From contig PXQN01000017.1 of the NCBI GenBank assembly GCA_003021305.1, forward strand, positions 1-39,973: a stretch of DNA of 39,973 nt, in the 5' to 3' direction. This stretch comes from Halobacteriales archaeon QH_10_67_22 (lineage in GTDB: Archaea > Halobacteriota > Halobacteria > Halobacteriales > Haloarculaceae). This document shows positions 28,570-30,615 of this stretch, piece after piece. Position 1 is the stretch's first letter. Every line of letters begins with the position of its first letter. A model generated the notes under the pieces. It searched no databases, was not told where the DNA came from, and saw only the letters and a list, made by a program, of their open reading frames with translations. Both the position numbers and the translations under genes were made by a program.

Positions 28570-28655
28570 TGTCGTTGTTCGACCGTCCCTATCTCTCTCG
28601 TCCCGGTATATATATCTCGCCCCCGTCCGTCCGTCGATATGTTCGCCGAGCGTCA

Positions 28656-28735
28656 TAGTGATTATTGTAGCGATTTACCGGTACGACCGCACGCAGTCGT
28701 GCGGTCGATCCGGAACAGACCGACAATAATCACTA
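28656..28735. mobile_element. MITE family C, copy C2 (80 bp)
   Basis: Termini TAGTGATTATTGT / ACAATAATCACTA, TSD TCA (28653-28655, 28736-28738), internal hairpin CGACCGCACG-CAGT-CGTGCGGTCG. Lies between the divergent kinase and trpS leader promoters. Confidence 0.9.
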
Positions 28736-28784
28736 TCAGTATTCGGGGGTATGTGACCGTATCGGGACGCTTCCCCGATCGAAA

Positions 28785-28796
28785 ACCGTTAAATCC
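28785..28796 (+). promoter_or_regulatory. Promoter of the trpS leader frame
   Basis: ACCGTTAAATCC (TATA-type core GTTAAATC at 28788-28795) is centred about 27 bases before the ATG at 28818, the geometry of a leaderless haloarchaeal transcript. GAAAA just upstream could be the TFB-recognition element. Confidence 0.55.
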
Positions 28797-28817
28797 TCCC
28801 TGACGGAACGTGCGTGT

Positions 28818-28901
28818 ATGCCGTCCACTTCCAGGACCGACGCGTGGCGCTGGCGCTGGCACGAGACGGAAGTGGACAGTGTCGCGTTCCCCGGCCGATG
28901 A
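28818..28901 (+). CDS. Candidate Trp-rich leader peptide upstream of trpS
   Basis: A 27-codon frame, ATG to TGA, containing DAWRWRWHE, that is three TGG codons at 28845, 28851 and 28857 in alternation with CGC. It starts about 27 bases after a TATA core, as a leaderless gene would. A perfect 10-bp stem pairs 28823-28832 (GTCCACTTCC) with 28868-28877 (GGAAGTGGAC), and the Trp codons lie in its loop. Downstream come a GC hairpin with T6 and then trpS. Inference: a ribosome stalling for lack of charged tRNA-Trp would prevent the stem and change downstream folding. Caution: the Trp codons lie in a TGGCGC hexamer repeat. Confidence 0.5.
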   Translation: MPSTSRTDAWRWRWHETEVDSVAFPGR

Positions 28902-28916
28902 CGCCGGTCGCGGGCC

Positions 28917-28938
28917 GCGGTGCTCACTCCGCTTTTTT
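28917..28938 (+). terminator. Terminator-like hairpin with T6 in the trpS leader
   Basis: GCGG (28917-28920) pairs with CCGC (28929-28932), followed at once by TTTTTT (28933-28938), 40 bases before the trpS ATG. The preceding GGTCGCGGGCCGC can form competing pairs. Alternatively CTTTTTTC is simply the TATA element of a separate trpS promoter. Confidence 0.4.
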
Positions 28939-28977
28939 CACGTGACACACGTTCAACCGCACTTCCCACCGCAACCG

Positions 28978-30615
28978 ATGACACCCGACACGAACCCGAC
29001 CGACGACGCGACGGACGGACCGACCGACGACCCAACTGACGGGTCGACTGACCAACCGAGCGACGACGCCCGCCTCGCGCCCGACGGCGGCGTCGACGCC
29101 GGGGGGGCAGACGAGACGACGCTGGACCCCTGGGGGTCGGCGACCGTCTCGGACTACCGGAACCTCTTTGCCGAGTTCGGCATCGAGGAGTTCGACGAGA
29201 TCCTCCCGGAGGTGCCCGACCCCCACTACCTGATGCGCCGGGGTGTCATCTTCGGCCACCGCGACTACCGCCCCGTCGCACGCGCCATGCGCGAGGGCGA
29301 CCCCTTCGCGGCCCTCTCGGGATTCATGCCGACCGGCGACCCCCACATCGGCCACAAACTCGTCTTCGACGAGATCATCTGGCACCAGCGACAGGGCGGC
29401 GACGCCTACGGCCTCATCGCCGACCTGGAGGCCCACAGTGCCCGCGGGATGACCTGGGACGAAATCGACGAACACGCCCGCGATTACGTGCTCTCGCTGC
29501 TCGCCCTGGGCTTTGACCCCGAGGACGGCGAGCTCTATCGTCAGTCCGACAACCGCGAGGTCCAGGACCTGGCGTTCGAACTCGGTATCGAGGCCAACTA
29601 CTCGGAGTTGCAGGCGATCTACGGGTTCGACGGCGAGACCGACGTCTCGCACATGCAGTCGGTCGTCACCCAGATGGCCGACATCCTCTACCCGCAACTC
29701 GACGAACCCAAACCGACCGTCATCCCCGTCGGTCCGGACCAGGACCCCCACGTCCGCCTGGCGCGGGACCTGGCCGCCCGGACCCGCTACTTCGGCGTCA
29801 CAGAAGCCTACGCCAGTTTCGCCGTCGACGACGACGAACGCGCACTCCTCGCGGCGGCCTACGAGACGCTCTCGGAGCGCCACCCCGACCGGACAGTCCG
29901 GTGTGGCGACGCCGCGACCTACCTCGAAAACGAGCGCGACCCCGGCGCGACCGACGCCCGCGCGACGACCATCGACTCGCTGGTGACGATGCTCTCGGAG
30001 GCGGGCAAAGAACCGCTTCGCCCCCGCGTGCGCTTTCTGGAGCGCAACGCCACCGGGGACGCCTTCGAGGCGCTGATCGAGGCCATCGACGGCGAGAAAC
30101 GGGTGTACGACGAACACGTCGACGCCTTCGACCTGGACCGCGCGGCCGCTGAACGGCTGGCCCGCGACGTCGAACTCGACCACGGCGGCTACGGCTTCCG
30201 CGCGCCGTCCTCGATCTACCACCGGTTCATGACCGGCCTGACAGGAGGCAAGATGTCCTCGTCGGTGCCGGCCTCACACATCAGCCTGCTCGACGACCCC
30301 GAGGACGGCTACGACAAGGTGCAGTCGGCGACGACCGGCGGCCGCGAGACCGCCGAGAAACAGCGCGAACTCGGCGGGAAAGCCGACGAGTGTCCGGTCT
30401 ACGAGCTGTACGCGTACCTGCTGGCCGGCGAGGACGACGAGTTCGCCACCGAAGTCTACGAGGAGTGTGTCGGCGGCGAGCGCCTCTGTGGCGGCTGTAA
30501 GGAACAGGCGGCCGAACTCATGCGGAAGTTCCTCGAGGACCACCAGGACGAACGCGAGAAGTGGGCCGACCGCCTCGACGAACTCGACATCGACTTCGAC
30601 ACCGACCGCACGTGA
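28978..30615 (+). CDS. trpS: Tryptophan--tRNA ligase
   Basis: 545 aa. Class I synthetase that charges tRNA-Trp. The HIGH motif is TGDPHIGHK (about residue 120), preceded by the archaeal/eukaryal-type SGFMPTG; KMSKS is GGKMSSSVPASH (about 422). Also seen: VIPVGPDQDPHVRLARDLA and ADECPVYELYAYLLAGEDDE with ECVGGERLCGGCKEQA near the end. The first 45 residues are a Thr/Asp repeat (TDGPTDDPTDGSTDQPSDD) not needed for catalysis. The ATG at 28978 is the last one before the conserved part; an in-frame start at 28810 would read through the hairpin region and is rejected. Likely regulated by the leader described above. Confidence 0.95.
   Translation: MTPDTNPTDDATDGPTDDPTDGSTDQPSDDARLAPDGGVDAGGADETTLDPWGSATVSDYRNLFAEFGIEEFDEILPEVPDPHYLMRRGVIFGHRDYRPVARAMREGDPFAALSGFMPTGDPHIGHKLVFDEIIWHQRQGGDAYGLIADLEAHSARGMTWDEIDEHARDYVLSLLALGFDPEDGELYRQSDNREVQDLAFELGIEANYSELQAIYGFDGETDVSHMQSVVTQMADILYPQLDEPKPTVIPVGPDQDPHVRLARDLAARTRYFGVTEAYASFAVDDDERALLAAAYETLSERHPDRTVRCGDAATYLENERDPGATDARATTIDSLVTMLSEAGKEPLRPRVRFLERNATGDAFEALIEAIDGEKRVYDEHVDAFDLDRAAAERLARDVELDHGGYGFRAPSSIYHRFMTGLTGGKMSSSVPASHISLLDDPEDGYDKVQSATTGGRETAEKQRELGGKADECPVYELYAYLLAGEDDEFATEVYEECVGGERLCGGCKEQAAELMRKFLEDHQDEREKWADRLDELDIDFDTDRT

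Follow-up and report, generated by a model that had tools for sequence, protein, structure and literature searches.

The trpS Locus and Its Leader

The window analyzed here is a 39,973-nucleotide stretch of DNA from Halobacteriales archaeon QH_10_67_22 (contig PXQN01000017.1, forward strand). It contains trpS, which is preceded by a short open reading frame rich in Trp codons and by a set of RNA strands that can pair in more than one way (Table 1). Matches to tryptophanyl-tRNA synthetase (TrpRS) entries in the PDB support the assignment of the trpS product as a genuine TrpRS, and trpS is the sole TrpRS gene found in its own genome, the assembly of which is 77% complete. A class I synthetase match elsewhere in this genome (C83) was first taken as a second TrpRS and was then rejected; its open reading frame reads as TyrRS. 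The leader frame upstream of trpS translates as MPSTSRTDAWRWRWHETEVDSVAFPGR, and a BRE/TATA-like sequence, CGAAAAccgTTAAAT, stands ahead of it with TTAAAT at 28789-28794.

Table 1. Features of the trpS leader region, with positions counted from the first letter of the window
Feature	Position	Strand	Basis and remarks
Leader promoter, CGAAAA (BRE-like) and TTAAAT (TATA-like)	28780..28794	+	sequence; centered about 27 nt 5′ of the leader start codon
Leader ORF, 27 codons, leaderless	28818..28901	+	stop TGA at 28899-28901; start codon is the inferred transcription start
Strand 1 (GTCCACTTCC), 5′ arm of the Trp stem P1	28823..28832	+	perfect 10-bp pairing with 28868-28877
Sensor codons TGG, W-R-W-R-W	28845-28847, 28851-28853, 28857-28859 (span 28845..28859)	+	in the leader frame
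Strand 2 (GGAAGTGGAC), pairs with strand 1 (P1) or strand 3 (P1alt)	28868..28877	+	folds, covariation
P2 5′ arm (AGTGTCGCG), immediately 3′ of strand 2	28878..28886	+	covaries with 28916-28924
P2 apical hairpin, contains the leader stop codon	28887..28915	+	in relatives often GGGC-CTAA-CCCG
P2 3′ arm (CGCGGTGCT), running into the invariant GCTC	28916..28924	+	all 57 aligned copies have GCTC
Strand 3 (TCCGCTTTTTT), pyrimidine tract able to pair with strand 2	28928..28938	+	helix-length test; 84% pyrimidine over 14 nt
trpS, tryptophanyl-tRNA synthetase, 545 aa	28978..30615	+	NF008928, 1017 bits; ATG at 28978, stop at 30615

A first-pass annotation of the window had proposed transcriptional attenuation at this site, and every part that it named is present where it was placed. 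The TATA core, the 27-codon leaderless frame, the W-R-W-R-W run, and trpS itself were all confirmed in the sequence, as was a perfect 10-bp stem with all three Trp codons in its loop. The GC hairpin that it described exists but required correction, as it belongs to a longer helix formed by 28878-28886 and 28916-28924. Farther upstream, an 82-bp near-palindrome (28655-28736; 39-nt arms, the outer ATAGTGATTATTGT perfect) sits between a PAS histidine kinase gene and the leader promoter. With about 40 copies genome-wide at 91-100% identity, it is a MITE- or REP-like repeat family.

Taken by itself, the window sequence is statistically unremarkable. Folding of the region from the window's single sequence is no better than that of shuffled controls (z +0.74 and -0.65), and a consensus terminator scan of the window found no intrinsic terminator. 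The case for a regulatory element therefore depends on relatives.

A Conserved Element in Halobacteriales

Eighty named trpS relatives were fetched, and about 10 of them carry the same leader and stem upstream, among them those of Halorhabdus amylolytica, H. salina, Halapricum hydrolyticum, Haloarcula pellucida, Halorientalis pallida, and Salinibaculum litoreum. A covariance model built from 8 sequences (R1) matches 76 of 146 family genomes and 16 of 22 genera. A second model built from 57 sequences (R2) matches 178 of 392 Halobacteriales genomes, representing 55 of 95 genera, and 159 of 392 genomes in an overlapping class-level draw; every match in a phylum draw falls within Halobacteriales. 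Model searches of the 160 genomes without a first match added one further genome with a clear match (G059), plus a few weak ones. Since this second search was nearly empty, the absence of the element from many genera is real. Weak matches at L160, L162, and L269-L277 were dropped as false positives. A search of Rfam 15 with the window and six relatives returned no hit at the gathering score and none of relevance at E values up to 5, and the conserved RNA element corresponds to no Rfam family.

The element is tied to TrpRS genes. Seventy-five of 79 family matches stand just upstream of a TrpRS gene, as do 51 of 56 further loci. These genes are of two kinds, the 545-aa type of the window (NF008928) and a distant type of about 385-400 aa (NF008927) that is only about 32% identical to it. 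The element therefore tracks function rather than a single locus. One further copy, with four Trp codons in its leader (MLSAFRSWSWRWYRSGKRTVS), precedes trpD, a gene of tryptophan biosynthesis. The check suggested in the first-pass annotation, whether Trp codons and stems are kept or covary among relatives, gives a positive answer: 128 distinct Trp-type copies retain in-frame Trp codons, stem P1, and the structure downstream of it, with compensatory changes. This recurrence across the order before TrpRS genes, together with the compensatory changes, excludes a chance origin.

A few genomes hold more than one copy. Two genomes (G370 and G431) have two short-type TrpRS genes each, and every one of these has its own Trp leader (L205/L206 and L207/L208); one of these leaders stops right after its Trp codons. 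In another genome, a second Trp leader copy (L201, G205:C6) has no TrpRS gene behind it and faces a converging gene instead, and is probably a decayed duplicate.

Sensor Codons and a Codon Swap

An attenuator that senses codons should have a leader with multiple cognate codons. Among the 128 Trp-type copies, a homologous leader frame begins with ATG in 118 and GTG in 10, where the start codon was picked solely by its closeness to strand 1. TGG occurs 271 times in the leader frame compared with 55 and 11 times in the other two frames. At least one in-frame TGG is present in 125 of 128 copies and at least two in 112. The 13 copies that have only one Trp codon count against the attenuator reading. 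Leader length and stop position vary among copies (the stop falls before strand 2 in nine of them), whereas the Trp codons are kept. This part of the definition is met, with the proviso that translation itself is inferred from conservation of the frame.

A concern raised with the original proposal was that the Trp codons might be no more than part of a TGGCGC repeat. This caveat fails. The codon between the Trp codons is variable (CGC, CGT, CGG, CGA, CAG, CAC, CAA, CCG, CCC, TGC, and TCA have all been found) and TGG stays constant and in frame. The caveat is also countered by copies in which Ser codons replace the Trp codons. In two genomes (G295 and G313), the element lies before a seryl-tRNA synthetase gene (PF02403, TIGR00414), and its leader, MESTSRSRSQSSFWEVDS, has Ser codons where Trp codons usually stand (SRSRSQSS). 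A broken serS in G313 has a second copy of the scaffold ahead of it (L257), whose leader, MVSTSHSRSRPHRWEVDS, is Ser-rich. These serS copies are few and related and represent one or two evolutionary events. Codon identity nevertheless follows the synthetase, and the Ser swap is the change that a codon-sensing mechanism predicts.

Two Helices That Share a Strand

Two mutually exclusive helices that share a strand, one of which cannot form while a ribosome occupies the sensor codons, make up the second part of an attenuator. The evidence is strongest for P1. In an alignment of 57 copies that was built from sequence only, pairing in P1 stands at 93.8%, and 6 of its 10 pairs show double changes. 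When P1, P2, and the apical hairpin are taken together, 17 of 25 pairs have changed on both sides and 87.7% of the cells remain paired, which exceeds all 500 shuffles (0/500) and every slid register. Permutation among genera gave 0/20000 for P1 and likewise for P2.

Pairing of strand 2 with strand 3 was first noticed in folds and was then followed in 69 copies by a longest-helix test and a single-column test. The longest 2:3 helix has a mean of 7.91 pairs, compared with 7.40 ± 0.10 after genus permutation (0/20000) and 5.26 ± 0.14 with shuffled tails. One 2:3 column pair appears as A-U in 20 copies, G-C in 19, and G-U in 18, with 6 mismatches. By the pairing rule used, the same column pair is paired in 59 of 65 cases, compared with 48 ± 2.5 under permutation (0/5000). 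An energy-only swap test of the helix, run on 57 copies, gave no significant result (p about 0.19).

Folding models for all 128 copies place strand 2 mainly on strand 1 in 111 when the RNA is free and mainly on strand 3 in 124 when a ribosome sits at the first Trp codon. The stalled-ribosome model excludes P1 by construction, and strand 2 still pairs often when the tails are shuffled (0.67 versus 0.79 for native tails), so the stall model alone proves little. Shuffled tails demonstrate that much of the 2:3 pairing in this model stems from purine/pyrimidine composition. For the window RNA, the full-length equilibrium fold slightly prefers 2:3 and the nascent RNA prefers 1:2. The 2:3 helix is supported, but we rank it below P1 because of the nonsignificant swap test and the fairly good pairing of shuffled tails. 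The Trp codons are flanked by strand 1, a median of 6 nt to their 5′ side, and strand 2, a median of 11 nt to their 3′ side, and a ribosome stalled on them must therefore hold the two strands apart. The element thus has two exclusive helices that share strand 2, one of them blockable from the sensor codons.

A Single Promoter and a Pyrimidine Tract

Attenuation also calls for a regulated gene downstream that lacks a separate promoter. Across the 128 copies, AT content reaches a maximum of 84-88% at -27 to -29 from the leader start, with flanks of roughly 30-40%. The position of this peak fits a leaderless leader transcript that starts at the start codon, although the start is inferred from sequence alone. 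Applied to the synthetase ATG, the same test shows no AT-rich peak at -27 and thus no sign of a second promoter. On sequence evidence only, then, the downstream gene has no promoter of its own. A second caveat to the original proposal, that the T run might be the TATA box of a separate trpS promoter, fails on this missing peak and on the rarity of the T run, which reaches five or more residues in only 14 of the 128 copies.

That rarity also bears on how transcription might end. The window has six T residues at 28933-28938 and is unusual in this respect. A bacterial-type terminator, defined as a GC hairpin followed by a U run, is not supported, given the 14 of 128 copies with a T run of at least five and the empty consensus scan of the window. 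The GC hairpin and T6 terminator of the first-pass annotation is accordingly not a conserved feature. What is conserved is a pyrimidine tract (84% pyrimidine over the 14 nt that follow GCU, in the 128 copies) that switches between an unpaired state and pairing with strand 2, the 3′ arm of P1. The distance from strand 3 to the synthetase ATG has a median of 55 nt and a range of 14 to 127 nt, without overlap with the start codon. By the classical standard, free strand 3 is a weak terminator, as T runs of at least five are rare. The missing hairpin-U form lowers only the claim of a bacterial-type terminator, however, and archaeal termination does not need that form. The termination factor FttA attaches to U-rich nascent RNA and cleaves it, and it has been suggested to compete with the ribosome (PMC11616081). 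T stretches act as terminators in Haloferax volcanii, where one tested hairpin terminated 59% of transcripts (PMC7237163). In light of these data, a pyrimidine tract exposed after a hairpin is a plausible archaeal terminator, though the termination step here is inferred.

Proposed Mechanism and Alternatives

The likely reading of this locus is a codon-sensing, ribosome-mediated attenuator before trpS in archaea. No expression data are available, and the stalling, the ON state, and the termination output are all inferred. Transcription would begin at the start codon of the leader, and a ribosome would translate the leader behind RNA polymerase. With charged Trp-tRNA at hand, the ribosome would clear the Trp codons, P1 (1:2) would form, and strand 3 would be left free after P2. 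Transcription would then end early, before trpS, either intrinsically or through the archaeal termination factor FttA/aCPSF1. Under a shortage of charged Trp-tRNA, the ribosome would stall at the Trp codons, keeping strands 1 and 2 apart and preventing P1. Strand 2 would instead pair with strand 3, hiding the tract, and the polymerase would read into trpS. The direction of the switch cannot be read from the sequence; we assign 2:3 as ON and free strand 3 as OFF because the synthetase is needed when charged tRNA runs short. What comparison establishes is the leader frame with its sensor codons, both helices, the one promoter, the link to TrpRS genes and trpD, and the Ser swap before serS. Comparison supports the originally proposed attenuation before trpS to this extent, with stalling, termination, and the response to Trp remaining inferences.

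The alternative that survives best keeps the codon-sensing switch and moves its output to a later step. It is possible that the choice of helix governs how the trpS mRNA is translated or degraded (for example, through a nuclease cut in the free tract) rather than whether transcription terminates early. In its favor, the T runs are weak in most copies, strand 3 precedes the synthetase ATG by the median distance given above, and FttA is a ribonuclease that prefers U-rich RNA (PMC11616081). One version, masking of the translation start site, is disfavored by the lack of overlap between strand 3 and the synthetase start codon and by the variable gap between them.

The remaining alternatives do away with codon sensing. 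TrpRS autoregulation, in which TrpRS would bind the leader RNA as a mimic of tRNA-Trp and the Trp codons would be incidental, draws support from the strong RNA structure tied to TrpRS genes. It is very unlikely, as the Trp codons hold the reading frame across variable loops, Ser codons substitute before serS, the same scaffold also precedes nonsynthetase genes, and no tRNA-like or other Rfam match was obtained. We consider it just as improbable that the leader encodes a functional micropeptide to which the RNA structure is secondary. A recurring peptide core (e.g., WRW...EVDS) speaks for this idea, but strand 2 and P2 determine the C-terminal half of the peptide, which is absent from copies whose leader ends ahead of strand 2, and the compensatory changes keep the pairing rather than the peptide. 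Finally, a chance juxtaposition of a Trp-rich GC repeat and a hairpin, with trpS transcribed from its own promoter at the T run, would suit a window sequence that folds no better than shuffles and is all but ruled out by conservation in 55 genera together with covariation, an unconserved T run, and the lack of an AT-rich peak ahead of the synthetase gene.

Wider Use of the Scaffold

The scaffold is not confined to synthetase and tryptophan genes. Two copies (L148 and L150, each at 2001-2125 on the minus strand) precede a gene for a 620-aa ABC exporter. In their leaders, MMSATELGPVLWHGSVAADS and MMSATGLGPVLWHGSTVADS, a conserved core, GPVLWHG, replaces the tandem Trp codons, and these leaders may conceivably act as an arrest-peptide sensor. 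Four others (L203, L260, L266, and L217) stand before GNAT acetyltransferase genes, with leaders MSALSTFAVTSRERTVRSAA, MSAPNASAGRSRERTVRSAA, MSSTYGCNRSPSCVDSGVPSPVWA, and MVALSGWRRRVPGRATSVVSSR. Another two (L204 and L261, G310), near-identical and on different contigs, precede a SAM methyltransferase gene with leader MVSVSYLMRWLTFWEADSASNAVFRASLG. Such copies hint at the possibility that the same switch senses other causes of ribosome stalling.

A bolder reading, toward which we lean by a narrow margin, is that of a general, reprogrammable haloarchaeal attenuation scaffold whose codons are matched to the gene that follows: Trp for the two TrpRS families and trpD, and Ser for SerRS. Arrest-like leaders (e.g., MMSATELGPVLWHGS) would control the ABC exporter, GNAT acetyltransferases, and methyltransferase. 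This would be the first ribosome-mediated attenuation in Archaea, operating on leaderless mRNAs and probably through FttA.

Comparison with Known Systems

In bacteria, attenuation through ribosome stalling is textbook knowledge. The system closest in purpose is the auxiliary trpRS1 gene of Streptomyces coelicolor, which is reported to be under ribosome-mediated transcriptional attenuation (Vecchione & Sello 2010, J. Bacteriol. 192:3565; cited in PMC4787780). As in the element described here, a leader peptide with Trp codons precedes a TrpRS gene, and a response to uncharged tRNA-Trp was proposed. The Streptomyces system is bacterial, with a leader that is reportedly Shine-Dalgarno-led and a classical hairpin-U terminator. 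In contrast, the archaeal element is leaderless, has a pyrimidine tract after its hairpin, and is unrelated in RNA sequence.

In the enterobacterial trp (trpL), his, thr, and leu attenuators, a ribosome on cognate codons picks between two exclusive helices. These attenuators and the archaeal element are alike in having strand 1 near the codons and a shared strand 2. They part ways at strand 3, which in trpL is common to the antiterminator (2:3) and the terminator hairpin (3:4). In the archaeal element, strand 3 is itself the tract that is exposed or hidden, and hairpin P2 exists in either state. T-box riboswitches of Gram-positive synthetase genes offer another parallel, as they provide charging-dependent control of synthetase and biosynthesis genes with a specifier that changes with the gene. 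They differ in binding tRNA directly, without translation. We rejected a T-box identity for the archaeal element given the absence of an Rfam match and the position of the sensor codons within a start-to-stop frame.

Archaea couple transcription and translation, but with a eukaryote-like polymerase and FttA. Promoter-proximal premature termination linked to aCPSF1/FttA in Saccharolobus (PMC8448881) similarly suggests control of output by early termination in archaea; it differs in having no leader peptide, RNA switch, or specific signal. The same 2021 paper stated that archaeal regulation was known to act only on recruitment at the promoter. No precedent for archaeal ribosome-mediated attenuation was found in the open-access literature searched, which misses most subscription journals. 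Without a bench test, the element is a strong candidate for the first archaeal case of attenuation by ribosome stalling. If this assignment is correct, a widespread codon-programmed switch would show that attenuation arose independently on leaderless mRNAs, and the element would offer a direct in vivo probe of both transcription-translation coupling and FttA-dependent termination.
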